A DNA stretch of 38,311 nt from a virus. Position numbers and translations under genes: made by a program. This document shows, piece after piece, positions 26,163 to 38,311 of this stretch (positions within the stretch are counted from its first letter, which is position 1; each line of letters begins with the position of its first letter). Where the stretch lies: IMG/VR virus record IMGVR_UViG_3300042549_005347, positions 1 to 38,311 of that record. One strand, written 5' to 3'. The notes beneath the pieces are model-generated. The model was given only the letters and a program-made list of their open reading frames with translations. It searched no databases and had not been told where the DNA came from.

Positions 26163-26164
26163 TT

Positions 26165-26482
26165 ATGGCGCAGGAAGAAATCCTCATCTACAAAACACCA
26201 ACATCAATCCATGATGAAAGTGATGCAGAACTTATTTGCTCAATCTCTCGTGATGGCAAATCTCTCACCATAAGAGGGATGAACAAGAATTGGGCAAGCA
26301 CCTATTCTGACATCATTAAGAACTCATCAGGTCGACCAGATATTGGTAAAGACAAATACGGTCTAGTGACAATTCTCAACTCCACATACGGCAGAGAAGT
26401 CCATTACGGCGACCAAATTGAAGATGGCGTATTCGCTGAAGAATCAGCCACTCTTCCATTTAAAATTACACTAAAAGTTTAG
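26165..26482 (+). CDS. Hypothetical 105-aa protein after kinase-like gene
   Basis: The product starts MAQEEILIYKTPTSIHDESD with TTGGAGGA as a strong ribosome site inside the end of the previous gene. It has short strands (AELICSISRDGKSLTIRGM), a segment WASTYSDIIKNSSGRPDIGK, and a final strand PFKITLKV. No family is recognised. It follows the kinase-like gene by two bases, as the 96-aa gene follows the other kinase-like gene by seven. The two small proteins do not obviously align with each other. Confidence 0.75.
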   Translation: MAQEEILIYKTPTSIHDESDAELICSISRDGKSLTIRGMNKNWASTYSDIIKNSSGRPDIGKDKYGLVTILNSTYGREVHYGDQIEDGVFAEESATLPFKITLKV

Positions 26483-26488
26483 GCACCA

Positions 26489-27316
26489 ATGTCACGCAAA
26501 TCCATTATTGAGACCAAAACAGACAACCCAAAGTCACCCCTATTCGCTACCCGCGAACAGGCGATTAGTGCTGGGAATGGTTGCACGGGAGTGCGTATTG
26601 TTTTGGTTAATGGAGCACGGATGTTTGCTCCGTGCCCACCGAAAACAAATGGATTTGAAAAACTAGGCGAGCGTGGGATTCTTGGAATAGAGACCCTCCC
26701 TGACGGTGGTTTAGTTTCAGCAAAAGACGATGACATCGTGGAGATAGACGAGAAGGGCTTCGTTAGTAACTACAGCCGTTCTACTGACCCTGATGTTTTC
26801 TCTGACCCTGATTCTGCTCGTGTTCGTGCCCGCAATCTTGGCTGTATTGGGATTCGTTCATATATTGCAAAAGATGGCAAAAAGGTTTACTTGCCTTGTA
26901 CAAATTCTTCTGACTACAACAAATACACGGGTCTACGCCATGACGGTAGACCGATGAAGAAGAAGTCAGCCCTGTCTCGTGTCGGTAAGCGCAAAATGCG
27001 CACGATTCTCACAAAACCAACTAAGCCAAGCGTGCCTAAAGAGATAGACATTGACTCACAAACAGTCAATACTCTCGCTATGAAAGTACGCCAGCACAAC
27101 TCTGGAGTAACTAACAAGCCAGACTGGGCACATACAAACCTTAGAGTCTTAAAAGATGTTTACATAAGAGGAAATAAAGACGGCAAAGGGTTCGCCCGTG
27201 TCAATGAATTTCTAAAACTTGTGCGTAGCGGAACGGCTGATGCTGCCTACCACAAAGATGATGACCTTCTGGACTCAAATCACCCTTGGTTGAACAAGCC
27301 GAGCGGTAAAAAATAA
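26489..27316 (+). CDS. Protein with two Cys-containing 'GC-x-G' repeats, last gene before capsid
   Basis: The 275-aa protein has two related units: ATREQAISAGNGCTGVRIVL followed by NGARMFAPCPP, and DSARVRARNLGCIGIRSYIA followed by DGKKVYLPC. Each reads as a helix, a G-C-x-G turn, a strand pair and a Pro-Cys. Units of this kind (A..RA..LGC.G......G....PC) recur in phage head-region proteins I know, but I cannot name a family. The C-terminal half is basic and contains VNTLAMKVRQHNSG and VNEFLKLVRSGTADAAYHK. The CPP segment recalls the tag in the preceding large genes but lacks the second cysteine spacing. A virion or head-assembly role is inferred from position. Confidence 0.72.
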   Translation: MSRKSIIETKTDNPKSPLFATREQAISAGNGCTGVRIVLVNGARMFAPCPPKTNGFEKLGERGILGIETLPDGGLVSAKDDDIVEIDEKGFVSNYSRSTDPDVFSDPDSARVRARNLGCIGIRSYIAKDGKKVYLPCTNSSDYNKYTGLRHDGRPMKKKSALSRVGKRKMRTILTKPTKPSVPKEIDIDSQTVNTLAMKVRQHNSGVTNKPDWAHTNLRVLKDVYIRGNKDGKGFARVNEFLKLVRSGTADAAYHKDDDLLDSNHPWLNKPSGKK

Positions 27317-27460
27317 AACCGAAAATTTCTTAAATAGTTGCAGGGATACAACATAGTCAAGTGTTACTCTGCTTAATAAGACATTAAACGGTTGGGTGCT
27401 CACCTGAGCCTTTATTGTAGAAAACAAAAATCCACCATAACTAACTTTTTAGGAGTTAAC
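27317..27460 (+). promoter_or_regulatory. Leader and possible promoter of the major capsid gene
   Basis: The 144-base AT-rich gap before the capsid gene is the longest in the head operon. It contains TTGCAG followed after 18 bases by TGTTAC, a weak promoter-like pair, and the TTTATTGTAGAA segment similar to one before the protease gene. AGGAG (27451-27455) is the capsid ribosome site. A separate promoter would suit a highly expressed capsid gene that is also followed by its own terminator. Confidence 0.35.
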
Positions 27461-28762
27461 ATGTCTTTTGACGAATCCCGCCTACGGGAACTACAAGGTG
27501 CCTTGCGCACCAAAATGGCAGACAACAAAGCAATTGCTGACTCATTCCAAATTGAGAATGAAACAGTAGTAGTTGATGCCAAGCAAAAATCAGCATTTGA
27601 TAGCAACATGCGTGATATCCGCGAAATCAAGAGCCTCATTGAGGGTCTTGAGGGAATGCGCGATGTCGATTCATGGTCAAACCAACCAGCAACCGCTTCG
27701 GTAGCACAAGAGTCAAACGCTCAAGGTCAGTGGGCTCCTCAGCCTCAGGCTAAGAGCCTTGGTCAAATGTTCCTTGATTCACCAGAATTCAAGGCTTTGG
27801 ATTCAGGTAAGAATGGCGCAAACATGCCAAGTCCTTTCCAATTGAACCGTGCAGATGTTGCGGGAATGTGGAGCACCAAGGATATCTACTCAGCATTGCC
27901 ATCAGGAACTCCTGGTTCGTTTGGTTCAATCCAGCGCGACCCAATGGTTCTTCCTCCAATGCGTACTCGCCGTGTTCGTGACTTGTTCCCAAGCCGCACC
28001 ACGACAGCAGCAGTTATCGAATACTTCCGCATGACTGGTTTCACCAACAACGCGGCAGCAGTTGCAGAGCGTGCCAGTTCGGCATTCGCTGCTAAGCCAC
28101 AGTCGTCTTTCTCCTTCGTTGGAGAACAGGCTCCTGTACGCACCTTGGCACACTGGGAAGCAGCACATCGCAATGTTCTTGCTGATGAGCCACAACTGCG
28201 TTCAATCATTGATAACGAACTCCTTTACGGATTGCGTTTGCAAGAAGATTCACAAATTCTTACAGGTGACGGCGCTGGTGAAAACCTTCGCGGTATCTTG
28301 GAGACTTCAGGAATCCAGACATACGACTGGTCTGCAGGAGTTCTCGGTGACAACAAGGCTGATGCGATTCGTCGTGCCGCAACCTTGTCGTTCCTTGCTT
28401 ACTACGAGCCAACAGGTGTTGTTCTTCACCCTAACGATTGGGAAGACATTGAACTTTCCAAGGATGACAATGGTCAGTACCTCGTAGCAGTTTCTGTTGC
28501 TATGGGTGGCGAGCCAAAGTTGTGGCGTATTCCTGTGGTTGATACCCCAGCAATGACAGAGGGCACTGCTCTCGTCGGTGCTTTCGGTACAGGCGCACAG
28601 TTGTATGACCGTGAACAGGCAAGCATCCGTATCAGCGAACAGCATGCAGACTTCTTCGTCCGCAACGCTATCGTTGTTCTTGCTGAGCAGCGTTTGGCTC
28701 TTGCAGTCAAGCGTCCTGAAGCATTCGTTGCAGTATCTTTCAACGGCGCTCCAGAAGCCTAA
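27461..28762 (+). CDS. Major capsid protein (HK97 fold)
   Basis: The 433-aa product starts MSFDESRLRELQGALRTKMA after AGGAG; an upstream in-frame start at 27392 lacks a site. The N-terminal ~100 residues are helical and charged, like the delta domain that prohead protease removes. The rest follows the HK97 capsid pattern: an E-loop region (RTTTAAVIEYFRMTGFTNNA, FSFVGEQAPVRTLAHWEAAH), a spine helix (LRSIIDNELLYGLRLQEDSQ), then ILTGDGAGENLRGILE, VVLHPNDWEDIELSKD, WRIPVVDTPAMTEGTALVGA and the C-terminal ISEQHADFFVRNAIVVLAEQ strand-helix. It forms the icosahedral shell. Translation is likely strong and the gene ends at a strong terminator. Confidence 0.95.
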   Translation: MSFDESRLRELQGALRTKMADNKAIADSFQIENETVVVDAKQKSAFDSNMRDIREIKSLIEGLEGMRDVDSWSNQPATASVAQESNAQGQWAPQPQAKSLGQMFLDSPEFKALDSGKNGANMPSPFQLNRADVAGMWSTKDIYSALPSGTPGSFGSIQRDPMVLPPMRTRRVRDLFPSRTTTAAVIEYFRMTGFTNNAAAVAERASSAFAAKPQSSFSFVGEQAPVRTLAHWEAAHRNVLADEPQLRSIIDNELLYGLRLQEDSQILTGDGAGENLRGILETSGIQTYDWSAGVLGDNKADAIRRAATLSFLAYYEPTGVVLHPNDWEDIELSKDDNGQYLVAVSVAMGGEPKLWRIPVVDTPAMTEGTALVGAFGTGAQLYDREQASIRISEQHADFFVRNAIVVLAEQRLALAVKRPEAFVAVSFNGAPEA

Positions 28763-28776
28763 TAAGCACTAAGCGG

Positions 28777-28813
28777 AACCCCGCTCATGCCTTCGGGTGT
28801 GGGCGGGGTTTTT
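28777..28813 (+). terminator. Rho-independent terminator after the capsid gene
   Basis: Arms AACCCCGC and GCGGGGTT enclose a second paired section CATGCC/GGTGTG closed by a TTCG tetraloop, followed by a T run. It ends the rightward structural operon. Confidence 0.9.
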
Positions 28814-28835
28814 GCTATATATGGGAAGATTATGT

Positions 28836-29375
28836 ATGAAAGAAAATGAATCGTTTTCATACTTTGGTGAGTTTCAAGATTTTGACTCGCTGTTACTGCT
28901 CGTCAATAAATTTGAAGAAGACGACTGGTTGGCGTATAAAGAACGCAAAAAAACAGGTGGTATTGCAAGCGCCTATAGCGACACCATTCCTTTGATTTAT
29001 AATCCGAAAATTAGAAATGCAAAGGATATCCATCACATACATTATGAAAGATTTCAGCGTCATGTGGACGCAGTGATTCAGGCAGCACTGCCGTTTATTG
29101 GGAGAACCATCCCCGTTCAAGCCATGCTGACGCGCATGAAGCCGCAGTCAACAATTGCTAGACATAAAGATAGGGGCGAAGTAACGAAAGTCTCCCACCG
29201 CATTCATGTTCCAATCATTACTAATCAGCAATGCATATTCACTATTGAAAATGATGAAAAACATTTACAAGCAGGGAGCGTCTGGTTGATAGACAACACT
29301 GACAGGTTTCATTCTGTTAGAAATGATGGCGATAAACATCGCATTCATCTAATTGTTGATGCCCGAGAAATATGA
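28836..29375 (+). CDS. Aspartyl/asparaginyl beta-hydroxylase-like 2-oxoglutarate/Fe(II) oxygenase
   Basis: The 179-aa product (start MKENESFSYFGEFQDFDSLL, GGAAG upstream) matches the aspartyl/asparaginyl beta-hydroxylase-type cupin fold. It has the HxD motif H110-K-D112 in TIARHKDRGEV, then HRIHVPIITN, the turn LQAGSVWLIDNTDRFHSVRN with distal ligand H159, and R169 in HRIHLIVDAR as the likely 2-oxoglutarate contact. These are the expected metal and cosubstrate ligands, so activity is plausible. The substrate is unknown: protein side chains or small molecules are both possible. The gene lies alone between two terminators directly after the capsid gene, so it may be expressed by read-through or by a weak promoter of its own. 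Confidence 0.85.
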   Translation: MKENESFSYFGEFQDFDSLLLLVNKFEEDDWLAYKERKKTGGIASAYSDTIPLIYNPKIRNAKDIHHIHYERFQRHVDAVIQAALPFIGRTIPVQAMLTRMKPQSTIARHKDRGEVTKVSHRIHVPIITNQQCIFTIENDEKHLQAGSVWLIDNTDRFHSVRNDGDKHRIHLIVDAREI

Positions 29376-29408
29376 GACAATATACACATGCCTACCTTAG
29401 GGCTAGAG

Positions 29409-29443
29409 AAACCCCCTGTCCGTAATAGGCTGGGGGTTTTTTT
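29409..29443 (+). terminator. Rho-independent terminator between convergent genes
   Basis: Arms AAACCCCC and GGGGGTTT flank a short loop section, followed by a run of seven or more T. It terminates the plus-strand oxygenase gene; on the minus strand the downstream tract is weaker. Confidence 0.88.
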
Positions 29444-29447
29444 ATTA

Positions 29448-29810
29448 CTAAATTATGGCTATCTCTAGCCTATTGATTTGTTTATTAAAGAAAGACACAA
29501 CATCATCAGTGGTCGCAGTTTCGCTCCACGAGTTCATATCTTCATCCATGAAGGCTTCTAAGTACTTTATTGTCTCCGCATAGAGACCCCATTTAATTGA
29601 ATCAATAGGGGCATCCTCAAGAGAACCATCCCAAGATTTCATATCTTTAAGAGAAGCACCACACGCAAGAGCCACAGCGCCATTTATGTTTATCTCACCA
29701 GAATACGAATGAAGGGGTAGCCAACCATTAAAGCCATACTGCTTAACATTGCTTGCAGCATTCTTTAATATGTCAACTACCCCTATTCGTACTAGGTCAA
29801 GCAGTGTCAT
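29448..29810 (-). CDS. Hypothetical protein, DUF6197-like
   Basis: The 120-aa protein has the pattern helix (LVRIGVVDILKNAASNVKQY), then GFNGWLPLHSYSGEININGA, a G-A-x-x-x-A helix (GAVALACGASLKDM), a long acidic middle and a C-terminal helix preceded by WSETATTDDVVSFFNKQI. The order 'helix, GW, small domain with I-x-GA helix, final W..T...VV..' resembles the DUF6197 family found in actinobacteria and their phages. No function is known for that family. It follows the ribonucleotide reductase by four bases, so it is co-transcribed with it. The family match is from memory of pattern and should be treated as probable only. Confidence 0.7.
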   Translation of the reverse strand: MTLLDLVRIGVVDILKNAASNVKQYGFNGWLPLHSYSGEININGAVALACGASLKDMKSWDGSLEDAPIDSIKWGLYAETIKYLEAFMDEDMNSWSETATTDDVVSFFNKQINRLEIAII

Positions 29811-29814
29811 GCAC

Positions 29815-31740
29815 TCACTTTACAGGACAAGCACCGCCAGCACAGTCATCAAAGTCAATCTCAAATCCGCGAGCGGCTTGCATTGGTGCAGAGAAGTCAA
29901 CTTTCGCAAGAATCTTCTCATACTCTGCTTCGGTAATTTCCTCATATGGAGGCAACGGGAAGTTATGGTCAGCATGAAGAAGGAAAGAGACCGACTTAAC
30001 GCTCACATCATAATTCTTGGATAGCCATTCCCTGATTGAATCAAGTTCTTCCTTGCGGTAGTACACAGTTACCGAAACAGCGTTATCTGCCCAGTCTCTC
30101 TGAAGTGCACTTACCCATTCCAACTGGTCAATAGCAGTCATGTCTTTAGCAAGCACAGAGTTATCTGGTGACTTACATGGAAACTCAACAACATACTTAG
30201 TGTGGTCTTCGCGTCCGTCAAGACCAATATCCCAAGTCACCTTATAACCACGGCGACGGCAAGCATCAACGAGTTTATCGGCAGCACCGAACCGAACACG
30301 ACGAATGTAGTGACGAGCAAATGCTGGGTGAATACCTGGTGTTACGCCAGGAAGCAAGGAGAGTGTTCCCGAAGGCTGAACAGTTGTCAAACGAACAGAC
30401 ACTGGCAGTTTGTTTTCGGCAGAGAACTGCTTGTCAAACCTGTCAAGTTCTTCATAGCCTGTTTTTAACCATGAAAGTTGCTCTGTGTTGCACTGAAGGA
30501 TTCCAGTAACGGATTGTCCAAGTCGTGCATTCTTCTTCACGATGTTGGTTGTCTTCTCGTATGGGTAGTCCATTTGAGTGATGCGCTTCTGGCAGAGATA
30601 CAGCAGGCGTGAGATTTCACAGAACTGCTCGTATGACTCAATATTCGGCAAGAACAAAGTTGCAAGGTTGCATGACTCACCGTCAGCCAGAGCAATCTCT
30701 GCGCAGGGGTTAAAGCCCTCAATAGATGGGTCAGGGCGCTTCTCCCCAGTACGACCAAATTGACGCGCTAGACGGCGATTGAGAAGCCCATACGGCTCTC
30801 CGTTGCCGCCATAGCCCTTCCATAGTTCAGGAAGGATATGGTCGTAGTAGTCGGCATAGATACTGTTGTTTGAGTTGGCTCGCCATGCTGGCACATCGCC
30901 ACTTCCCCAGTTCTTTGCACGAAGGAAAAGAACATCGTCAGGGTCGCCGATAGCAATCTGTGCTGAACGACGAGAAGAGCCAGAAACGACGATACGACCA
31001 ATGATGTTGCAAATATCAAGCACATCAACTGAACGCAGTTTCTTTCCTGCACGGTTGTTCATTACATTGCAAATGTCTTCAATACCATCAATGAGTGCAC
31101 CAGGACCTGATGCTGTTCCACCAAAGGTGCTCAACTTGGCACCAAATTCACGAACAAGGATTGTTGAGTAGGTGAATGACTTGCCTGTAATGAAGTACGA
31201 CTTCAGTGCGGCGTGAAGCAGGCGACGCCAACCGCCACGAGAGTCAGGAACAATGATGTCAGCATCATTTGTGCGTTCATGAGTGATTGTTACATTTGAC
31301 TTGACTTTTGGAAGGTCGTGAATCTTTGAACGCTCAACAGAGAACCCAACTCCGCCACCAAGCATGAGGTAGTCAAATAGAAGTTCAAAGTCTTCAATCT
31401 TTTCGATGTTTGTGAAGTAACAGTTATTCATTGATGTGCCATTGAATTGCTGTACAAGTGGTGTTCCTAATTGCCACAATGCTCGTCCGCTGAAAGAGCA
31501 GCGAAGGTTGAACATATGGTCAAAAAGTTTTTCTGCATCTTCTTTTGTGTACGGAACACCAATGTCGTATGCACCGTTGATGCAACGCTCAATTGTTTCT
31601 GCCCATGTTTCATTCATGTCTGTTCCGTCAATTGGACGGCTATATGTGCGGAGATAAACAATCTCTCCGAGACCGCCGAAACCCCAAGGTGGTGTTTGGT
31701 TCTGGTACGACAAAACGAACGATTTATCAAGTATTGACAC
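29815..31740 (-). CDS. nrdJ: Class II (adenosylcobalamin-dependent) ribonucleotide reductase, monomeric type
   Basis: The 641-aa enzyme reduces ribonucleoside triphosphates (or diphosphates) to deoxyribonucleotides using a B12 radical, supplying phage DNA synthesis. Visible residues match the Lactobacillus-type enzyme: C107 in MNNCYF; N344, C346 and E348 in FNPCAEI; C357 in ESCNLA (11-residue spacing to C346 preserved); and a redox pair C633/C638 in the C-terminal CAGGACPVK. The glycyl-radical and di-iron features of the other classes are absent. It is shorter than the ~739-aa L. leichmannii enzyme. Translation starts at GTG 31740 preceded by AGGGG. It heads a two-gene unit with the DUF6197-like gene. 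It implies the host makes or imports cobalamin. Confidence 0.94.
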   Translation of the reverse strand: MSILDKSFVLSYQNQTPPWGFGGLGEIVYLRTYSRPIDGTDMNETWAETIERCINGAYDIGVPYTKEDAEKLFDHMFNLRCSFSGRALWQLGTPLVQQFNGTSMNNCYFTNIEKIEDFELLFDYLMLGGGVGFSVERSKIHDLPKVKSNVTITHERTNDADIIVPDSRGGWRRLLHAALKSYFITGKSFTYSTILVREFGAKLSTFGGTASGPGALIDGIEDICNVMNNRAGKKLRSVDVLDICNIIGRIVVSGSSRRSAQIAIGDPDDVLFLRAKNWGSGDVPAWRANSNNSIYADYYDHILPELWKGYGGNGEPYGLLNRRLARQFGRTGEKRPDPSIEGFNPCAEIALADGESCNLATLFLPNIESYEQFCEISRLLYLCQKRITQMDYPYEKTTNIVKKNARLGQSVTGILQCNTEQLSWLKTGYEELDRFDKQFSAENKLPVSVRLTTVQPSGTLSLLPGVTPGIHPAFARHYIRRVRFGAADKLVDACRRRGYKVTWDIGLDGREDHTKYVVEFPCKSPDNSVLAKDMTAIDQLEWVSALQRDWADNAVSVTVYYRKEELDSIREWLSKNYDVSVKSVSFLLHADHNFPLPPYEEITEAEYEKILAKVDFSAPMQAARGFEIDFDDCAGGACPVK

Positions 31741-31806
31741 GATGTCCCCTAATTCTTTACTAACTGTGGAGTACTAGCATACACGGAACAGGAATACAGA
31801 AAGTGT

Positions 31807-32109
31807 TTAGAGTAGTCCTAATTCTTTTGCTTTTTCGACTGTGATGTAACTGCCCTTGCGCGCTAACAAAACCTTGTTTTTGTAAAAAGGAGTTATTTGT
31901 CTGTCTTCAAAAATGTCTTCCTCAACGAGAACTGTTGTCTTTTTATCCAGTGATTCATAAAGACCGATGCCAACAATGTGTTTAGGTTCAGCCCCATCAA
32001 CAGTACAATCACCAGTTTTGTTGCCGCAAACAATGCACGGTTGGCGTGTTGCTCTAATGATTTGCACATCGTCAAAAATGAATTCTGGTCGTTCGCCTTG
32101 ATTACTCAT
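31807..32109 (-). CDS. Small protein with CxxC...C motif, possible zinc binding
   Basis: The ATG at 32109 (MSNQGERPEFIFDDVQIIRA) overlaps the end of the upstream gene by 8 bases; an in-frame start at 32163 would overlap far more. The 100-aa product has PCIVCGNKTGDCT (three cysteines), then EPKHIVGIG, giving a C-x2-C-x5-C...H pattern that suggests a zinc-binding knuckle. The remainder is strand-rich (TTVLVEEDIFEDRQI) with a basic C-terminal stretch VEKAKELGLL. Similar small proteins occur in actinophages. The function is unknown. Confidence 0.75.
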   Translation of the reverse strand: MSNQGERPEFIFDDVQIIRATRQPCIVCGNKTGDCTVDGAEPKHIVGIGLYESLDKKTTVLVEEDIFEDRQITPFYKNKVLLARKGSYITVEKAKELGLL

Positions 32110-32713
32110 TATCCACAGCCTTTTCCACAGAACCAATACGCGGAGCAACTCTTGTAGATTCACTCCACGCTTTTCGTAGTTCTTCTCCGTCGGCAGTAGT
32201 GATGTCTCCGCCGTTTAGGTGCGGGCCGTAGCCACCAGACATAATAACAACATCAGCCACACTGATTAATACGGTAGAGATGCGTTTTCTGCGCCACATT
32301 TCATTGACCATCACTTGCTGAAGCCGTGAGTCGGAACGAAACCATCTAACAAAACCAACCCTGTCGGAAGCGGTCAACTTTATTCCGCCAACATCTTTTA
32401 CCGTAAGAACGGTGCCCTTAGGGAACTCGCCGCCAGCCATTCCATGAATAGACACCATGTCTGTTGGATGGGGGTTTTCTTCAAGGATGTACCAAAGGTC
32501 TGGGACTCCATCAAACTGCTCGTCAGTCAACCTAACTACGAGGCGCTCGTGCTCGTCAGCCATAACAAACGAATGCGGCTCAGACTTCGTAGGACACACC
32601 TTGCTTTCAATTACAAAGGGGTGAGGATGCTCGTCCGTAGCATAAGTCGCTACAACTGACCATTTGCTATTTAGTGGTGGTCCTTTCCAGAACCAGACTG
32701 TCTTCATTGCCAT
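32102..32713 (-). CDS. Hypothetical protein
   Basis: The 203-aa product begins MAMKTVWFWKGPPLNSKWSV and contains short beta-rich segments (HPFVIESKVCPTKSEPHSFV, ERLVVRLTDEQFDGVPDLWY), a glycine-rich turn MVSIHGMAGGEFPKGTV, and later RVGFVRWFRSDSRLQQVMVN and VADVVIMSGGYGPHLNGGDI. No family is recognised. It is followed by the small cysteine protein in an 8-base overlap and preceded by a 234-aa probable structural protein, all on the minus strand. Confidence 0.75.
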   Translation of the reverse strand: MAMKTVWFWKGPPLNSKWSVVATYATDEHPHPFVIESKVCPTKSEPHSFVMADEHERLVVRLTDEQFDGVPDLWYILEENPHPTDMVSIHGMAGGEFPKGTVLTVKDVGGIKLTASDRVGFVRWFRSDSRLQQVMVNEMWRRKRISTVLISVADVVIMSGGYGPHLNGGDITTADGEELRKAWSESTRVAPRIGSVEKAVDNE

Positions 32714-32722
32714 ACGGCAATA

Positions 32723-33427
32723 CTAGTCGTTCCACCACTCTGTCCACGGCTTGGCTGTGGCGGATGCTGCTTCTTCGTTGGACACACCAGTGTAGGCAAC
32801 CGATATTGTGACTTTCCCTTCACTGTTGTAGTCTGTCCAGTCTCCATCAGCGTTGTAGACGAACAACTGCAACATCTCGTCAGTGTTCATAATTGCAACA
32901 TCTGCTAGGTATGTATTGGCGTTGTATTCTGTTTCATTCCAACTGCTGTTTATGGCGTGGGCTTTATCAATAGGTGCTACAGCGGTACTGCGAAGACTTT
33001 GTGCGGAGCCCCATACACCACCAGATGTAGAGAATGCGCCGAATCTTCCAGCAGCATCATCAGGGTTTCCAAGCCACATTGTTGGCTTTAGGGTTTCGTC
33101 AATGTTGCTACTGTTCCAACCTGCATCGTTGAATACAGCCATTAAGTCTGTTGGGTTATCGTAAGTTCCGTGCTGTGTCTTGGAGTTCTTAGACTTAAAT
33201 GCCGCGAGACGCAATAATCTCTCGGTTGTCTCAATGTCTACGCTCGTGTCCCCGCCTTCGCCGTTTAGGGTATGCCAAAGACCATATCCGTCGCTTAGTA
33301 CCTGAGTGGTAAACCAGATTTTCTCAATCTTCACTCGAAAAGGAAACGACACATTCAAGAAAGAAGGGTCTGTTTGCTTGACGGTCCACTCATAGTTGAC
33401 GATTGCGGGTGCGATGATTCCAGACAT
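32723..33427 (-). CDS. Hypothetical beta-rich protein, possibly virion-associated
   Basis: The ATG at 33427 follows AGGAG closely; a much longer open frame upstream to 33748 is a shadow of the next gene. The 234-aa product starts MSGIIAPAIVNYEWTVKQTD and is rich in strands, Asn, Asp, Thr and Trp (FPFRVKIEKIWFTTQVLSDG, NANTYLADVAIMNTDEMLQL, GKVTISVAYTGVSNEE). The composition resembles phage surface or decoration proteins, but no family is recognised. Its own promoter-like element follows the terminator of the preceding gene, so it is expressed separately from it. Confidence 0.7.
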   Translation of the reverse strand: MSGIIAPAIVNYEWTVKQTDPSFLNVSFPFRVKIEKIWFTTQVLSDGYGLWHTLNGEGGDTSVDIETTERLLRLAAFKSKNSKTQHGTYDNPTDLMAVFNDAGWNSSNIDETLKPTMWLGNPDDAAGRFGAFSTSGGVWGSAQSLRSTAVAPIDKAHAINSSWNETEYNANTYLADVAIMNTDEMLQLFVYNADGDWTDYNSEGKVTISVAYTGVSNEEAASATAKPWTEWWND

Positions 33428-33458
33428 TTTGTCTCCTGCTTTTAGAGGGGGCGCTAAT

Positions 33459-33467
33459 ATTATGACA
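33459..33467 (-). promoter_or_regulatory. Extended -10 promoter-like element for the 234-aa gene
   Basis: The minus-strand sequence reads TGTCATAAT (TGn plus CATAAT) about 32 bases before the ATG and directly after the U-tract of the previous gene's terminator. The same TTTTTTTATGTCATA string occurs before the neighbouring 116-aa gene. No consensus -35 is visible. Confidence 0.4.
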
Positions 33468-33475
33468 TAAAAAAA
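33461..33475. repeat. 15-base direct repeat, copy 1 (other copy at 33910-33924)
   Basis: TATGACATAAAAAAA on the plus strand occurs identically at 33910-33924. Both copies sit between a terminator and a minus-strand start codon. Confidence 0.9.
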
Positions 33476-33508
33476 GAAGAGAGCGCCCCACAAAAGGACG
33501 CTCTCTTC
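33469..33508 (-). terminator. Rho-independent terminator of the 116-aa gene
   Basis: On the minus strand GAAGAGAGCG and CGCTCTCTTC form a 10-bp perfect stem, followed by seven T. It lies 20 bases after the stop of the gene at 33528-33878. Confidence 0.9.
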
Positions 33509-33527
33509 CAGTGAAACTAAAAGTTTT

Positions 33528-33878
33528 TTAGGCTTCGATAACAGTGAATGCAACGGTTGCGTTTGTACCAGCAGAACCTGAACCGATTCCCGAAACATCA
33601 AGATGAACCAAGTCACCCTTAACGAAATCAACATTTGCAGCCGTAAGGGTTGCTTCATCAGAATAACCAGTGGCAGCGATTGAAAATGCTGCTGCAACAT
33701 CAGTGCCAACCTTGAGGTCTGCGGTAAGTGCTGCGCCAGTAGGTGCACCAGTCACTGCCAAAAATGCGCCAGTGATTGTTCCATTGAACGGCATTGCCAT
33801 TGTGACAAGGCTGCTCGTAGTGAGTGTTCCTGGAATTCCAAGAACGATTGTGGTGGGGGCAAGAATACCTGTTGACAT
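33528..33878 (-). CDS. Small Ala/Thr/Gly-rich beta protein, probable structural or decoration protein
   Basis: The ATG at 33878 (MSTGILAPTTIVLGIPGTLT) has AGGAG upstream. The 116-aa product is rich in Ala, Thr, Gly and Val with alternating strands (TMAMPFNGTITGAFLAVTGA, TADLKVGTDVAAAFSIAATG, GDLVHLDVSGIGSGSAGTN, TVAFTVIEA). This pattern is like small jelly-roll domains of phage structural and tail-fibre proteins, where 'GTITG....V..APTGA.L..DL..GT' and 'GD...DV..IGS..AGT...V' recur. It has its own promoter-like element and terminator, as expected for an abundant protein. Confidence 0.72.
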   Translation of the reverse strand: MSTGILAPTTIVLGIPGTLTTSSLVTMAMPFNGTITGAFLAVTGAPTGAALTADLKVGTDVAAAFSIAATGYSDEATLTAANVDFVKGDLVHLDVSGIGSGSAGTNATVAFTVIEA

Positions 33879-33907
33879 TTTTCTCCTAAATAGTGGGGTA
33901 TATAGAT

Positions 33908-33916
33908 AGTATGACA
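33908..33916 (-). promoter_or_regulatory. Extended -10 promoter-like element for the 116-aa gene
   Basis: The minus-strand sequence reads TGTCATACT directly after a terminator U-tract, 30 bases before the ATG. It matches the element before the 234-aa gene in sequence and position. Confidence 0.4.
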
Positions 33917-33924
33917 TAAAAAAA
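33910..33924. repeat. 15-base direct repeat, copy 2
   Basis: This is an identical copy of the 33461-33475 sequence, overlapping the terminator U-tract and the promoter-like element. Confidence 0.9.
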
Positions 33925-33956
33925 CACCTCACTGATTAACAGTGAGGTGTTTTTAA
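33917..33956 (-). terminator. Rho-independent terminator of the 80-aa gene (symmetrical)
   Basis: Perfect 14-base arms AAAAACACCTCACT and AGTGAGGTGTTTTT flank a 7-base loop, with T runs on both strands. It lies ten bases after the stop of the minus-strand gene at 33967. Confidence 0.92.
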
Positions 33957-33966
33957 AGTTAATTAT

Positions 33967-34209
33967 TTAAACGGTCTTTACGAAACGCTTATCGCTTTCA
34001 AGTGCCGAATACTCTTCATTGAAAAGTACTTTGAACTCTTCTTCATACTTGTGTGAAAGCACAACATTTGCACGACGGCGTGCTTCTGCACGACGAGCAT
34101 TCTCACGCTTTTGCAATTCATTGCGACGAGCCTTTTCTTCCTCTGGAAGAGGTTTGCGACCTTTGCGCTTTTGAAGTGATGCTTTCATCTGTTCATATGG
34201 TGTAGTCAT
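33967..34209 (-). CDS. Small basic helical protein
   Basis: The 80-aa product (MTTPYEQMKASLQKRKGRKP) is rich in Arg, Lys, Glu and Ala, with a long probable helix (EEEKARRNELQKRENARRAE then ARRRANVVLSHKYEEEF) and a short C-terminal tail. The charge pattern suggests nucleic-acid binding or a coiled coil. It has a recognisable promoter (TTGCAA-17-TATTGT), a palindrome in the leader, and its own terminator, so it forms an independently controlled unit. The ribosome site is weak. Confidence 0.75.
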   Translation of the reverse strand: MTTPYEQMKASLQKRKGRKPLPEEEKARRNELQKRENARRAEARRRANVVLSHKYEEEFKVLFNEEYSALESDKRFVKTV

Positions 34210-34231
34210 TATGTCTACTTTCTGTCTAGGT

Positions 34232-34247
34232 GTGTTCTTTTGAACAC
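34232..34247. promoter_or_regulatory. Perfect palindrome at the predicted start of transcription (operator or leader hairpin)
   Basis: GTGTTC-TTTT-GAACAC is a perfect inverted repeat. Its right edge coincides with the predicted +1 of the minus-strand promoter at 34253-34281, a usual place for a repressor site. As RNA it would form a 6-bp hairpin at the very 5-prime end. Confidence 0.5.
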
Positions 34248-34252
34248 TTGAA

Positions 34253-34281
34253 ACAATACACCCGCACTAGCACGATTGCAA
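34253..34281 (-). promoter_or_regulatory. Promoter of the 80-aa gene, TTGCAA-17-TATTGT
   Basis: The -35 is TTGCAA (34276-34281), the spacer is 17 bases ending GGGTG, and the -10 is TATTGT (34253-34258). The same layout (AAGTTGCAAT, 17-base spacer ending GGGTG, TATAGT) occurs at 34605-34633. Confidence 0.6.
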
Positions 34282-34299
34282 CTTTTCTCAAATAATCTT

Positions 34300-34331
34300 T
34301 TGACTTGCATTGTTTCCCGAAAGCAGATAAA
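34300..34331 (+). promoter_or_regulatory. Promoter-like region before the 86-aa gene, possibly leaderless
   Basis: TTGACT (34300-34305) or TTGCAT (34305-34310) may act as -35, with GATAAA at 34326-34331 as -10. Spacing is not ideal (20 or 15 bases). The ATG at 34341 lies so close that little or no leader would be present, and no ribosome site is visible. Confidence 0.4.
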
Positions 34332-34340
34332 GTGCCAACC

Positions 34341-34601
34341 ATGACTAACACCTCTTTTGATTATGAGCAAGAAAAAACCCTCCTTCAAGCCCTAGATGAA
34401 GCAATCAAGGTTGCTGGCAAAAAGATGGACTTGGATGACATCGCAGATGACGCCCCAGATGACGAGCAGGACTCCCTATACGAGGAGCGCTTTCACTGTG
34501 GCACTTGTATTGTCCGCTCGGTCTTAGACACAATCTGGGTCGATATGGAGCGTCTGATGGACTTCTACAGGGATTCAACCCCACCAGAAAATATCTTGTA
34601 G
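34341..34601 (+). CDS. Small acidic protein with HCGTC motif
   Basis: I chose the ATG at 34341 (MTNTSFDYEQEKTLLQALDE); the frame extends upstream only with a TTG inside the promoter region. The 86-aa product is acidic and helical (DEAIKVAGKKMDLDDIADDA) with FHCGTCIVRSVLDTIWVDME near the C-terminus. The two cysteines could bind metal or be redox active. No family is recognised. It is the first gene of the rightward small-gene cluster and may be translated from a leaderless message. Confidence 0.72.
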   Translation: MTNTSFDYEQEKTLLQALDEAIKVAGKKMDLDDIADDAPDDEQDSLYEERFHCGTCIVRSVLDTIWVDMERLMDFYRDSTPPENIL

Positions 34602-34604
34602 AAG

Positions 34605-34633
34605 TTGCAATACTACAACAGGGGGTGTATAGT
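34605..34633 (+). promoter_or_regulatory. Promoter TTGCAA-17-TATAGT before the phosphatase gene
   Basis: TTGCAA (34605-34610), a 17-base spacer ending GGGGGTG, and TATAGT (34628-34633). It matches the minus-strand promoter at 34253-34281 in -35, spacing, spacer end and -10, so both probably belong to one regulon. Confidence 0.65.
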
Positions 34634-34664
34634 TACTCCCCTTACCTACTAAAGAAAGATAAAA

Positions 34665-35147
34665 ATGAATATTTCACCTATTGAATTGCCTGTCGTCAGG
34701 AACCTTCAAGAATCACGAGAACTAGCATCAATGTTTGCTGCAATTCTCACTGTTGGGCCAGAAGAACGAGAAGTTAGATGGAAGCACGACAACCATAAAG
34801 TATTGGTTTTCGGCGACACCACCAGCGGACATGGCGCACCAACATTTGAACAAATTGCAGAAGCAGTTGAATGGGGCAAAGACCAAAACGACTTGCTCGT
34901 TCACTGTCACGCAGGAATGTCACGCTCAACCGCTACGGCATGGGGCATCTCAATCGCACGAGGTGCAGACCCACTAGACTCATTCCTTGCACTCAAAGAA
35001 GCACAACCACAAAGCGAATATCGTGGTGGACGCGGGCGTGAGTTCATCCCCAACAATCTAATCGTCAAGCACCTCGAAAAGTTTTTCAACATCAAAGGTC
35101 TCCTTGACATTCGCAAGGAACACGCAACATCAAGTGGATGGTTCTAA
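34665..35147 (+). CDS. Dual-specificity/tyrosine phosphatase-like protein
   Basis: The 160-aa protein has the cysteine-phosphatase signature VHCHAGMSRSTATAWG with nucleophile C81 and R87 (CX5R), preceded by the strand LLVHC and followed by a helix and ISIARGADPLDSFLALKEAQ, which fits the dual-specificity phosphatase fold. The upstream part contains VLVFGDTTSGHGAPTFEQIA, where D51 may be the general acid. It removes phosphate from protein Tyr/Ser/Thr or from another phosphorylated substrate. It is the first gene after a well-formed promoter and overlaps or abuts the next genes. Because the same genome encodes kinase-like proteins, a functional link is conceivable but not shown. Confidence 0.85.
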   Translation: MNISPIELPVVRNLQESRELASMFAAILTVGPEEREVRWKHDNHKVLVFGDTTSGHGAPTFEQIAEAVEWGKDQNDLLVHCHAGMSRSTATAWGISIARGADPLDSFLALKEAQPQSEYRGGRGREFIPNNLIVKHLEKFFNIKGLLDIRKEHATSSGWF

Positions 35148-35149
35148 CA

Positions 35150-35428
35150 ATGACCGACGAAAAGCGCAAACCTAAAATAGTTCACGGCACATACGCCTGT
35201 TACACAAACAGCAAATGCCGTTGTGAACTATGTGCAGGTGCGGCTCGTGAATACATGCGCAAATACAGGCAGACTGAACAAGGACGCCAGAAAAGTCGCT
35301 TCTATACACACCTCGCTGCCAAGCGTGCTAGTCGTGCCGCTTCATGGCTTAAAGAGAACAACCCCGATGTGTGGGCTGAAATATGTTTAGAAATCAATCC
35401 ATCCACATACAAAAATGGTTCTAAGTAA
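35150..35428 (+). CDS. Small basic Cys-rich protein (HGTxxxY...CRCxxC type)
   Basis: The 92-aa product contains HGTYACYTNSKCRCELCAGA followed by an Arg/Lys/Tyr-rich helix (REYMRKYRQTEQGRQKSR). The H-G-T...C-R-C-x2-C arrangement is a small zinc-ribbon-like motif that recurs in actinophage genomes; the basic helix suggests DNA binding. It starts two bases after the phosphatase stop; an in-frame ATG at 35138 overlapping that gene is an alternative. The function is unknown. Confidence 0.78.
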   Translation: MTDEKRKPKIVHGTYACYTNSKCRCELCAGAAREYMRKYRQTEQGRQKSRFYTHLAAKRASRAASWLKENNPDVWAEICLEINPSTYKNGSK

Positions 35429-35650
35429 ATGGCAGACCACGACGAGATTCGTCGCATTATGAGAAATCTTGAAGTCCATGACTGTCTTGACTCTCTAATG
35501 AAACTCGCTACAAGCGAATTAACTACTACAGATACTGCGCAACTAGCGCTTGACGCTCATGGGTTTTTGGTAGAACTATCCGCTGAAAATAAAGTATTCA
35601 ACGATATTCTTCGCAATAGAGGGACAAGGTATCCGCATGAAGTGGTTTAA
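35429..35650 (+). CDS. Hypothetical small helical protein
   Basis: The 73-aa product (MADHDEIRRIMRNLEVHDCL) starts directly at the preceding stop (TAAATG). It is mostly helical and acidic, with alternating hydrophobic positions (CLDSLMKLATSELTTTDTAQ, HGFLVELSAENKVFNDIL). No family is recognised. It overlaps the next gene by 14 bases. Confidence 0.68.
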   Translation: MADHDEIRRIMRNLEVHDCLDSLMKLATSELTTTDTAQLALDAHGFLVELSAENKVFNDILRNRGTRYPHEVV

Positions 35651-35909
35651 CGATTCTCTAAGTGGTTACAAATCCATTGGATTTGACTATTGTGTACAAG
35701 ATGGACAAAGATGGTATGGTTTATTAATATGGAACAAAGTAATAGGAATCAAAGTCAAGCAGACCAGACGGATGCTCTCCGCAAAGAAATTTCAGAACTC
35801 CGTGGACGACTTATCGACAGTAATCGCGTGGTTGAACGAGAAGAATACAGCGAGTCGGCAATCGGTAGAACCCTCGGAACAATCGGAACACGATTCAAAT
35901 CCCTCTTAA
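35637..35909 (+). CDS. Hypothetical protein overlapping the following gene
   Basis: The 90-aa frame starts MKWFNDSLSGYKSIGFDYCV after AAGG and its first ~42 residues look like a real small beta domain (GQRWYGLLIWNKVIGIKVK). From about residue 43 it shares its DNA with another frame (35729-35926), where the composition looks more coding. Either the genes overlap by 181 bases, or the first protein is shorter than the frame suggests, for example through a sequencing error. Confidence 0.5.
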   Translation: MKWFNDSLSGYKSIGFDYCVQDGQRWYGLLIWNKVIGIKVKQTRRMLSAKKFQNSVDDLSTVIAWLNEKNTASRQSVEPSEQSEHDSNPS

Positions 35910-35926
35910 ACAACAAAAAAATATAA
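35729..35926 (+). CDS. Hypothetical small coiled-coil protein
   Basis: The 65-aa product begins MEQSNRNQSQADQTDALRKE and contains a likely coiled coil (LRKEISELRGRLIDSNRVVE) and a basic C-terminus (RTLGTIGTRFKSLLNNKK). Its ribosome site is weak (GGTATGG). It overlaps the preceding frame by 181 bases in the -1 relation. The regular heptad-like spacing favours it as real. Confidence 0.55.
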   Translation: MEQSNRNQSQADQTDALRKEISELRGRLIDSNRVVEREEYSESAIGRTLGTIGTRFKSLLNNKKI

Positions 35927-35945
35927 ACTAACTAGAAAGTAAAAA

Positions 35946-36242
35946 ATGCAACTATCGTTTTTACCAGACGACCATGATGTTTCCATTACAGTGCCGTGCA
36001 TTGTAATGCTCCATTACCCAGATGGGCAGGGCGTATATCACGGTCCATTCAAAAATGTTCTTGAAGCACGAAAATGGATTGACGACCGTCACGACAATAC
36101 GAGTCGCTATATGTCTTTATCAATAATTTACCTTCGTCGTACTGACCTGCAAATGGAAACGAATGATTACTACGCTCCCCCAAGTTGCTTCAGCGAAGAA
36201 GGCTACTTAAATCTATATCTCAGAAATGAAACGGAAAAATAA
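35946..36242 (+). CDS. Hypothetical protein
   Basis: The 98-aa product (MQLSFLPDDHDVSITVPCIV) has a strand-loop-strand core, MLHYPDGQGVYHGPFKNVLE followed by ARKWIDDRHDN, then strands (YMSLSIIYLRRTDLQ) and a polar C-terminus. The 'Y-H-G-P-F...A..W' arrangement suggests a small globular fold, but I cannot name a family. It is co-directional with the preceding small genes and followed after two bases by a short helical protein. Confidence 0.68.
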   Translation: MQLSFLPDDHDVSITVPCIVMLHYPDGQGVYHGPFKNVLEARKWIDDRHDNTSRYMSLSIIYLRRTDLQMETNDYYAPPSCFSEEGYLNLYLRNETEK

Positions 36243-36244
36243 AA

Positions 36245-36427
36245 ATGGAAATGCCAGACCTACCACCAGCAGAAAAATCAGCAGAACAACGCAGAGCGTT
36301 AAAGTTTTGGGTTGACCACTGCGCACGGCTTGAAGCAATGATTGGCGAACTTCGCGCTCAACTCACTGAAACCAAAGGCTTGCTAGAAAAACTAGAAAAG
36401 CGCATCTTTGAAGAGTTGCCTAAATAG
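36245..36427 (+). CDS. Hypothetical short coiled-coil protein
   Basis: The 60-aa product (MEMPDLPPAEKSAEQRRALK) is almost entirely helical with a heptad-like section (ARLEAMIGELRAQLTETKGL, LEKLEKRIFEELPK), consistent with a coiled coil. It ends two bases before the end of the convergent holin-like gene, and no terminator is visible between them. Confidence 0.65.
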   Translation: MEMPDLPPAEKSAEQRRALKFWVDHCARLEAMIGELRAQLTETKGLLEKLEKRIFEELPK

Positions 36428-36429
36428 AT

Positions 36430-36669
36430 TTATTCTGCTTTTCTGTCTACCTTGTTGAAGACAGCATGAATCTCACTAGAGTCTAATTTGCCGTCATCAA
36501 GATAAGCCCTTGACAGACCTTCAACTACGGTGGCAACACCAGCGATACCTGCCATAAAGCATGCTTTCCATAGTGGAACGCCAGCAACAGCACCTGCACC
36601 GATAACACCAAGACCTGATGCTGCAAATACGGCAAGGATACGGGTAAGTATGTTAATTAATGACTTCAT
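36430..36669 (-). CDS. Small two-helix membrane protein, holin-like
   Basis: The 79-aa product starts MKSLINILTRILAVFAASGL (ATG 36669; the TTG at 36672 is less likely). It has a first hydrophobic helix with many Ala and Gly (~5-32, ending GVIGAGAVAGVP), a second (LWKACFMAGIAGVATVVEGL) and an acidic, charged C-terminus (RAYLDDGKLDSSEIHAVFNK). Size and layout match small phage holins, and the DDGKLDxxEI tail is familiar from actinophage membrane proteins. No endolysin lies next to it, so holin is a probable rather than certain call. A perfect TATAAT lies 6 bases before the ATG, suggesting a leaderless message. Confidence 0.68.
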   Translation of the reverse strand: MKSLINILTRILAVFAASGLGVIGAGAVAGVPLWKACFMAGIAGVATVVEGLSRAYLDDGKLDSSEIHAVFNKVDRKAE

Positions 36670-36675
36670 CAATTA

Positions 36676-36681
36676 ATTATA
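36676..36681 (-). promoter_or_regulatory. -10 element TATAAT immediately before the holin-like gene
   Basis: This is a perfect TATAAT on the minus strand whose last base is 6 bases before the ATG. Transcription would begin at or next to the start codon. No good -35 is visible at 17-18 bases. Confidence 0.5.
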
Positions 36682-36693
36682 CTTTATGGACTG

Positions 36694-37107
36694 CTACTTT
36701 GAGTCCTTCTTGAACTCTGTCCATGTCTTGTCGCCAACGCCGAAGTATTCACGAGCATAGCCAGACTGAATAATGTCCTTGTTCAGACAGGCAGTAGTTG
36801 GGTCTTCAATATCATCCGAAGAAAAAATTCGTGCCAGAATACGCCCATACTTATCGTTCTTGTCAGGAATCGTATTAACAAAAACCCACTTGTGGTTTGT
36901 AAGCCAATCCTGTGTGTACGCCTTTGCTTTCATGCCCATTTCTTTTTCAGCAAGGTCTTTAGTGCGTGACTCTGGCGTATTCACACCGTAAAGACGAACA
37001 CGAATCTTGTGATGGATATTGAACCCAAGGTCAATCATCAACTCAATAGTGTCGCCATCAATCACTTTCAACAGTGTTGCTCCATACCAAAAACGCTCGT
37101 TAGTCAT
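36694..37107 (-). CDS. Staphylococcal-nuclease-fold thermonuclease-like protein
   Basis: The 137-aa protein has the SNase signature: VIDGDTIELMID (D17, D19, D26), RVRLYGVNTPE (R38, E46) and DKYGRILARIF (R89), followed by LNKDIIQSGYA. R38, E46 and R89 correspond to catalytic R35, E43 and R87 of staphylococcal nuclease by spacing; the Asp that follows the strand there (D40) is Asn here (N43), a substitution that may alter calcium binding. No signal peptide is visible, so it probably acts inside the cell, perhaps on host DNA or RNA. It follows the DUF6321-like gene with 7 bases between and has GAGGA before its ATG. Confidence 0.88.
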   Translation of the reverse strand: MTNERFWYGATLLKVIDGDTIELMIDLGFNIHHKIRVRLYGVNTPESRTKDLAEKEMGMKAKAYTQDWLTNHKWVFVNTIPDKNDKYGRILARIFSSDDIEDPTTACLNKDIIQSGYAREYFGVGDKTWTEFKKDSK

Positions 37108-37114
37108 TATTTCC

Positions 37115-37516
37115 TCAATCTTTTGTTTTAGCGTACTTTTCTAGAAGAGCACGCCCCTTTGCAGCGAGTTTCGCTGCTTCTTCCAAATTGTCTGGCACTG
37201 GTTCACCCCATGCGGTAGCAGAAAGAGCCAAACGAGTAGGTCTACCTTTTTCATCTTTCATAGGTCCACTGGGATTAGTGAAAAACCTTGTTAAAAAAGA
37301 ACCTTTACGGCGCATTTTTGCTGGGGTATCAGCAGGCCCGTCAACGCCAGGTTTCAAGTTAGAACCCTCAGTACGATTAAAGTACCTACGACCCGCTGGA
37401 GTTAAACCACCTTTTGGGTCTTTTAGAGGTTCTGATTTTTCGTTGTATTCAGCAGAATAGTCTTCAGTCTCAAACCTGACAGATTTAATGCTCCCCTGAT
37501 AATCTTTCCAAAGCAT
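37115..37516 (-). CDS. DUF6321-like protein
   Basis: The 133-aa protein contains the block DPKGGLTPAGRRYFNRTEGS, then LKPGVDGPADTPAKMRRKGS, FLTRFFTNPSGPMKDEKGRP and TRLALSATAWGEPVPDN, ending in a Lys/Ala helix. These strongly conserved-looking Gly/Pro/Arg segments match, from memory, the DUF6321 family in cyanobacteria, actinobacteria and phages. The function is unknown. The basic, Trp- and Phe-containing sequence would suit nucleic-acid contact. Its promoter (TGGTATAAT) lies about 35 bases upstream, and it is co-transcribed with the nuclease gene. Confidence 0.72.
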   Translation of the reverse strand: MLWKDYQGSIKSVRFETEDYSAEYNEKSEPLKDPKGGLTPAGRRYFNRTEGSNLKPGVDGPADTPAKMRRKGSFLTRFFTNPSGPMKDEKGRPTRLALSATAWGEPVPDNLEEAAKLAAKGRALLEKYAKTKD

Positions 37517-37550
37517 AAAGCAGCCAATCCATAGTGGTTAGTGTGGCTAC

Positions 37551-37559
37551 ATTATACCA
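37551..37559 (-). promoter_or_regulatory. Extended -10 promoter TGGTATAAT
   Basis: The minus strand reads TGG followed by a perfect TATAAT (37551-37556), an extended -10. TTACCG lies 17 bases upstream as a weak -35. It lies 35 bases before the ATG of the DUF6321-like gene and just inside the end of the upstream intergenic space. Confidence 0.6.
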
Positions 37560-37569
37560 TTCAAGGCTT

Positions 37570-38154
37570 TTAGCGGTAAGGTTCACCCTCAGCCCATGCA
37601 ACAATGCACCAGCGTTCACCGCTAGTCACAGGCGTGACATGGTTAGGTAGATACGAAGCCCACAGGGTAGCAAAGCCGATATTCGTAGGAATCACATTGT
37701 CCATGTGACCAGCAGAAAGCACCACATCGCCACCCTCATACTCGTCAGGTTCCGACAACTGAAGAACCATAGATATTTTACGGCGGGGATTATTGCTAGA
37801 CCAATCCATAGAGCGACTCAAGTGGTCACCCTCTCTGAATCTTAAAATCTGGACAGTCCTGATTATGTTCCATTCAAAACGCCAAGAATTAGAACCTTCA
37901 AAAATAGTCTGCAAACGCTCCCAAAGACCAGGGTATTTCTTTTGCGACAGCGTATATGTCATCACCGAGCGAATAGATTTATCCGATTCATTTTCGTCAA
38001 CGGCGACTTCATGAATACCGTCCTCCATCAAAGCAAGAGCAATCAACTCCTCGCATTCCTCAGGAGTAAAAACAGAAACAACATTCGCCACACCATGAAG
38101 GCTCGGCGCATAAACCAATTTCCCCCTAGGGATAAAATGTCTACCCTTTGCCAT
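37570..38154 (-). CDS. 2-oxoglutarate/Fe(II) oxygenase-like protein with altered metal site
   Basis: The 194-aa protein has the PKHD/prolyl-hydroxylase-like fold: FTPEECEELIALAL, the strand VQILRFREGDHLSRSMDWSS, then RRKISMVLQLSEPDEYEGGD, IPTNIGFATLWASYLPNHVT (H172) and PVTSGERW (R181). The usual HxD pair is replaced by S115-M116-D117, so one of the three iron ligands appears missing; H111 four residues upstream might substitute, or the protein may be inactive or use another metal arrangement. A GAGGA site precedes the ATG. It overlaps the end of the preceding gene by 14 bases. The substrate cannot be predicted. Confidence 0.8.
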   Translation of the reverse strand: MAKGRHFIPRGKLVYAPSLHGVANVVSVFTPEECEELIALALMEDGIHEVAVDENESDKSIRSVMTYTLSQKKYPGLWERLQTIFEGSNSWRFEWNIIRTVQILRFREGDHLSRSMDWSSNNPRRKISMVLQLSEPDEYEGGDVVLSAGHMDNVIPTNIGFATLWASYLPNHVTPVTSGERWCIVAWAEGEPYR

Positions 38155-38311
38155 TTGTCCTCATCTTTGAATAACATTGATGCATTGCCAGAACTGGCTC
38201 CTCATGCTGGTCGCTAGAAATAAAAGACTCACCAGACCACACACGGCACTGCCAAGTTGCATCTTTATAAGTCAAAGAAAAACTGCAATCCTTCAAAGCA
38301 AACCATTTCGT
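38141..38311 (-). CDS. C-terminal fragment of an unidentified protein (cut by window edge)
   Basis: An open frame enters from the right edge and ends at TAG 38141-38143, overlapping the oxygenase start by 14 bases. Its last 56 residues include FALKDCSFSLTYKDATWQCR and ISSDQHEEPVLAMHQCYSKM. The sequence is rich in Trp, Cys and aromatic residues and has the overlap typical of coupled phage genes. The start lies outside the window and no family is recognised. Confidence 0.6.
   Translation of the reverse strand, partial: TKWFALKDCSFSLTYKDATWQCRVWSGESFISSDQHEEPVLAMHQCYSKMRTNGKG

Follow-up and report, generated by a model that had tools for sequence, protein, structure and literature searches.

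Three promoter-like sites in a 380-bp control region

The window (the whole 38,311-nt stretch analysed here, IMG/VR record IMGVR_UViG_3300042549_005347) contains three clustered promoter-like sites, each of them directly upstream of a gene that it could serve. The features of this locus are, in order of position:

33920–33954, minus strand: terminator-like hairpin, 15-bp stem followed by a U-run (−22.5 kcal/mol, z −6.02)
33967–34209, minus strand: 80-aa gene, candidate target of promoter 1
34232–34247, minus strand: stem-loop GTGTTC-AAAA-GAACAC (−7.4 kcal/mol, z −3.14) where the promoter 1 message is predicted to begin
34253–34281, minus strand: promoter 1, −35 TTGCAA (34276–34281), spacer 34259–34275, −10 TATTGT (34253–34258)
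34305–34333, plus strand: promoter 2, −35 TTGCAT, 17-bp spacer, −10 TAAAGT (34328–34333)
34341–34601, plus strand: 86-aa gene, candidate target of promoter 2
34605–34633, plus strand: promoter 3, −35 TTGCAA, spacer ending in GGGTG, −10 TATAGT (34628–34633)
34665–35147, plus strand: 160-aa gene, candidate target of promoter 3

Promoter 1 has a predicted start at ~34246–34249 (minus strand), and 43 bases separate its −10 box from the ATG of the 80-aa gene, which is kept in five loci, scores below the Pfam cut-off for all families and has no family in PHROGs. The 86-aa gene also has no PHROGs family; its ATG lies 7 nt past the −10 box of promoter 2, so the message from this promoter is probably leaderless. 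Promoter 3 starts 3 bases past the stop codon of the 86-aa gene, and the ATG of the 160-aa gene follows 31 bases on. The product of the latter weakly resembles dual-specificity phosphatases, under the Pfam cut-off.

The first-pass annotation of this DNA had described two promoters of identical design on opposite strands. That design, TTGCAA-N12-GGGTG-TAT[A/T]GT, is present exactly at 34253–34281 (minus) and 34605–34633 (plus), and at both sites a 17-bp spacer ending in GGGTG does lie behind the −35 box TTGCAA. The spacer length holds when counted from TTGCAA, but would be 16 bp if the upstream box were AAGTTGCAAT, a slip of wording in the annotation. Both promoters stand, but the count was incomplete: promoter 2 belongs to this class as well and is situated between them, in divergent orientation next to the minus-strand promoter 1. 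The two TTGCAA boxes also have a preceding AAG and a following T in common. As to a possible origin of promoters 1 and 3 by duplication, their spacers are, by eye, alike in 10 of 17 bases, mostly at the right end, and their flanks are little alike. The 23 AT-rich bases that separate the divergent −35 boxes (34282–34304) are identical (23/23) in the close relative G002, and possibly represent an UP element or an operator.

The terminator-like hairpin closes the promoter 1 unit; at its place in G002 the stem bases differ and the pairing is kept. The relative G014 has another 6-bp stem, CGGTTG-AAAC-CAACCG, at the position of the leader stem-loop, which hints at selection for structure. Perfect stems of at least 5 bp were found in 8 of 20 5′ leaders of at least 38 nt from the window, G002, G004, G014 and L027, against 1.6 expected, near-identical spacers (at least 82% identity) being counted once and two of the eight being the homologous pair from the window and G002.

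The window, whose genes include those for a portal, a terminase, an HK97-type capsid and a ribonucleotide reductase, is only part of a large genome of actinophage type. Record L027 overlaps it over 5,850 bases at 100% identity and extends ~8.5 kb beyond, G002 is 85–90% identical over most of 24132–37443 (one segment at 71%, the last at 80%) and extends ~43 kb beyond, and related records reach 128–145 kb. L016–L021 (weak, partial matches), L060 and phage DSL-LC01 (L115–L117) were left out of a locus count. WhiB genes, an actinophage indicator as described in PMC10202952, occur in 7 of the 11 records searched, the window itself having none, and the capsid and terminase are closest to those of Gordonia and Brevibacterium phages, which makes an actinobacterium the most likely host. 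No near DNA match to window positions 1–24000 or to 20 kb of the relative G007 was found in the phage collection. A scan of genome contigs with the ribonucleotide reductase gave a single match, a 3.3-kb contig in a bin called Alphaproteobacteria, which was judged likely viral and was set aside as evidence on the host.

A 17-bp spacing rule in the phage group

Comparison with G002 shows how differently the parts of promoter 1 have changed. The −35 box (6/6), the TG (2/2) and the −10 box (6/6) are kept, whereas only 6 of the other 15 spacer bases are identical, and the spacer ends in GTGTG in place of GGGTG; the leader is nearly unchanged (42/43). Promoter 2 retains 5/6 bases of the −35 box, 13/17 of the spacer, 6/6 of the −10 box and 7/7 at 34334–34340. 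Promoter 3 is identical over −35, spacer and −10 (29/29) and thus provides no footprint. Upstream of the same phosphatase-like gene, TTGCAT-N15-TG-TAAAGT occurs in 6 of the 13 loci inspected in more distant relatives (L007–L012, among which L007/L012 and L009/L011 are identical pairs); in L006 and L013–L015 no TTGCAW promoter was seen before the homologous gene.

Within the window, TTGCAW-N17-TAWWGT occurs three times against a mean of 0.064 in dinucleotide shuffles, none of the 500 shuffles reaching three. The same spacing stands out when the window is taken together with eight relatives: in these nine records, whose enrichment counts take in the homologous sites of both the window and G002, we found 22 sites of the form TTGCAW-N17-TAWWVT, where shuffles gave 4.0. 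At spacer lengths of 15, 16, 18 and 19 bp the counts were 3, 2, 1 and 1, with 2.7, 2.8, 3.0 and 3.7 in shuffles. With the −35 box TTGACA there are 27 sites at 17 bp against 0.9, and a minor excess at 18 bp (5 against 1.2) and 19 bp (6 against 0.9, all six in G013). After near-duplicates were removed by the same spacer threshold, 47 sites remained at 17 bp, compared with 3–9 at each other spacer length from 14 to 20. An ATG lies 6–8 nt past the −10 box in 10 of these 47 sites, a pattern as in leaderless actinobacterial genes, and at 24–55 nt in 30; none of the 34 sites with spacers of 14–16 or 18–20 bp has an ATG 5–8 nt past the −10 box. A wider set, the records of 41 of the 80 capsid-bearing loci, contains 54 TTGMMW-N17-TATAVT sites, which come from 22 of these records; the reversed pattern, used as a control, has 4. 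The phage DSL-LC01 is a counter-example, with one such site in the first 50,000 of its 129,469 bases.

The shared spacer end has to be seen against this background. Of the 47 sites, 17 have a TG adjacent to the −10 box and 13 have it shifted one base upstream, compared with 1–6 for other positions, so the TG part of GGGTG, which the two noted promoters have in common, is meaningful. The complete GGGTG, in turn, does not define a promoter class of its own: it ends the spacer in 3 of the 47 sites, two of them the window's own, and in 1 of the 54 sites of the wider set of relatives.

Taken together, position, exact 17-bp spacing, hexamers kept beside a diverged spacer and the similar sites of relatives, all read directly from the sequences, support well the earlier claim that the sites are promoters.

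Host sigma-A or a phage factor

The three sites agree with the sigma-A consensus of Corynebacterium in every sequence feature. The −35 hexamers TTGCAA, TTGCAT and TTGCAA agree with the sigma-A pattern (TTGACA/TTGNCA/TTGCAA-related), the −10 hexamers TATTGT, TAAAGT and TATAGT with TAnnnT, and the 17-bp spacer of all three with a range of 16–19 bp; the positions of the genes are compatible with a predicted start ~7 nt past the −10 box. For C. diphtheriae and C. glutamicum, PMC5784534 reports ttgcaa as the sigma-A −35 motif, with the −10 at 16–20 bp and the start 6.9 bp on, and 20% of the genes of C. diphtheriae as leaderless; for C. glutamicum, PMC3890552 also gives TTGNCA/TANANT and describes TGnTATAAT as frequent. 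The likeness covers both hexamers (ttgcaa/ttgnca and TAnnnT), the spacer of ~17 bp, the frequent TG and, as predicted here, the distance to the start and the many leaderless genes. Unlike in Corynebacterium, the spacing of the phage group is stricter (17 only), and TG-TATA (17/47) is as frequent as TGn-TATA (13/47). The bifidobacterial consensus given in PMC10832533, TTGACA-N17-TATAAT with an optimum at 17 bp, shares its hexamers and its spacing with the TTGACA sites of the relatives, whereas the three sites of the window use TTGCAW. We therefore consider it very likely, from the enrichment at 17 bp, the ATGs of leaderless type, the identity of TTGCAA with the Corynebacterium −35 box and the lack of Sigma70_r2 matches (see below), that the three sites are housekeeping-type promoters of a large actinophage, read by the sigma-A of its host.

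The first-pass annotation had taken the common GGGTG as the mark of a promoter specific to the phage or to a sigma factor. If TTGCAA plus GGGTG were a special class, read by a sigma factor or a sigma-like co-factor that the phage encodes, this would explain why the exact two-element design was found in only three IMG/VR records (by overlap two of the same phage, the third being G002), and why, among the eight 17-bp-spaced sites listed on L027, which belongs to the same phage, three end in GGGTG (two of them the window's own) and a fourth in GTGTG. This explanation nevertheless appears quite unlikely. The third GGGTG site of L027, TTGACA-TATGACACGGGTGGGTG-TATAGT at window-equivalent 43353, has a TTGACA −35 box, so that GGGTG also occurs apart from TTGCAA, and the minus-strand site of G002 has GTGTG in its place. 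Nor is there a distinct consensus: GGGTG stands behind both −35 types, and most sites of the group lack it. Viral contigs in general often carry TTGACA-N12-GGGTG-TATAVT (at least 120 matching stretches, against 71 for the permuted GTGGG). The supposed mark is thus unsupported, and the GGGTG block is better described as a recurring habit of this phage, untied to the TTGCAA box. Sigma70_r2 gave no match in 30 phage records, window included, a search in which 10 of 14 controls gave a match; since these records are fragments or of uncertain completeness, this does not prove the absence of a sigma gene. Aquatic actinophages can carry one: the freshwater Planktophila phages E7 and F5, described in PMC10202952 as 39-kb genomes with a sigma-70 gene, resemble our group in habitat, GC (45–46%) and WhiB (in the window's relatives) but have this gene, of which none was found in our group, and the same source reports a sigma factor in an isolated pair of Nanopelagicales phages. 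What the group does encode are proteins with a region-4-like helix-turn-helix. Sigma70_r4 matches occur in 6 of 11 records, three of them over the cut-off and corresponding to small proteins of 128–168 aa, alike by eye, with the helix-turn-helix at the C-terminus:

G002 46391–46498, minus strand: sigma-region-4-like helix-turn-helix of a small protein, preceded by a helicase-associated domain (Pfam)
G010 100084–100191, plus strand: sigma-region-4-like helix-turn-helix of a small protein
G007 90323–90430, plus strand: sigma-region-4-like helix-turn-helix of a small protein

The presence of this helicase-associated/sigma-4-like protein in a relative as close as G002 speaks for a phage factor; it is a possible transcription factor and could alter promoter choice. 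The matches in G008 and at G007:128105 are 213-aa helix-turn-helix proteins with region-4 scores below the cut-off, and the remaining ones fall in G011 and G013. That the sites are chance matches devoid of function is hardly credible. A general sigma-70 consensus scan of 26000–38311 did give no excess (17 sites against 17.9 expected), so that the case rests on the specific design and the comparison with relatives, and with up to three mismatches allowed, where promoters 1 and 3 are the only matches in the window (0.24 expected), 3 of 100 shuffles also reach two. The exact design, however, appeared twice in none of 500 dinucleotide-preserving shuffles of the window (mean 0.0), each of the three sites is directed towards a start codon that lies plausibly far away, the hexamers are conserved beside a diverged spacer, and the enrichment across relatives is at 17 bp only. 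The window being the entire record, a search of it returned the two noted copies only; this lack of further copies, which the first-pass annotation had named as one thing that would count against its proposal, holds for the strict TTGCAA...GGGTG string only.

The second TTGACA site of L027 is TTGACA-TATGACAGGGGGGTGTG-TATTAT at window-equivalent 42873. Most of both TTGACA sites is contained in a stretch of ~530 bases (L027 ~10396–10926, window-equivalent 42857–43387) that has no match in G002. The spacers of the two promoter-like sites in this stretch are 14/17 identical, and it is possibly a small movable gene unit.

Promoter spacers are normally unconserved. In the relatives, a CACC box recurs at a fixed place: of 56 promoter-like sites, 17 have it at spacer position 7–10 and 1 has it elsewhere (11 against 1 when near-duplicates are removed). 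A strict version of this promoter is found in 21 stretches in IMG/VR, and examples of its general form, TTGACW-N5-ACACC-N7-TAWWVT, are:

G007 102924–102952, minus strand: CACC promoter
G004 67934–67962, plus strand: CACC promoter
G010 106241–106269, minus strand: CACC promoter

In some promoters the mid-spacer ACACC and the −10 side together make up a candidate dyad, TACAC-N5-GTGTA, and TACACCTAGGGTGTA and TACACACAGGGTGTA lie inside promoters of G013 and TACACCCCTCGTGTA in G007. From this and the fixed position of the box it could be argued that GGGTGT/ACACCC is the operator half-site of a putative regulator, of which the window keeps the right half only. We regard this as very improbable: none of the three spacers of the window contains CACC, and the right half of the dyad shares bases with the TG-TA that ordinarily opens the −10 region, so the candidate dyad may be coincidental. 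WhiA was considered as the reader of the CACC box, since the relatives carry WhiB and WhiA binds the motif GACAC (PMC3781837), and was rejected, as the box, NACACC, can begin with any of the four bases and in most cases does not begin with G. The open-access papers searched had nothing directly on a CACC or GGGTG motif within promoter spacers of actinophages. A structure of WhiA, WhiB and sigma-A exists. A spacer code, in which a WhiB-like protein or the helicase-associated/sigma-4-like protein would act as a co-factor of the phage and sort sigma-A promoters into expression groups of a CACC class and a GGGTG class, is an unlikely if conceivable extension. Should the CACC box turn out to have a function, such recognition of bases within a promoter spacer would be unusual.

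Under the preferred reading, the host RNA polymerase with sigma-A would recognize a −35 TTGCAW, an exact 17-bp spacer and a −10 TAWWGT. Promoter 1 would drive the lone 80-aa gene leftwards, stopping at the hairpin terminator; promoter 2 would drive the probably leaderless 86-aa gene rightwards; and promoter 3, just past the stop codon of the latter, would boost the phosphatase-like gene and the genes behind it. GGGTG would then be mostly the frequent TG beside the −10 box, and its G run a local habit of this phage. We infer sigma-A as the reader, the exact start sites and the time of expression. The promoters look like the places where the virus turns on a few small genes, not like a new kind of switch. 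In effect, they place the probable switch-on point, and its mode, of a small early-type gene cluster in an uncultured actinophage, and they provide a simple promoter-finding rule for an abundant phage group: TTGACW or TTGCAW, exactly 17 bp, TAWWVT, and a TG beside the −10 box.
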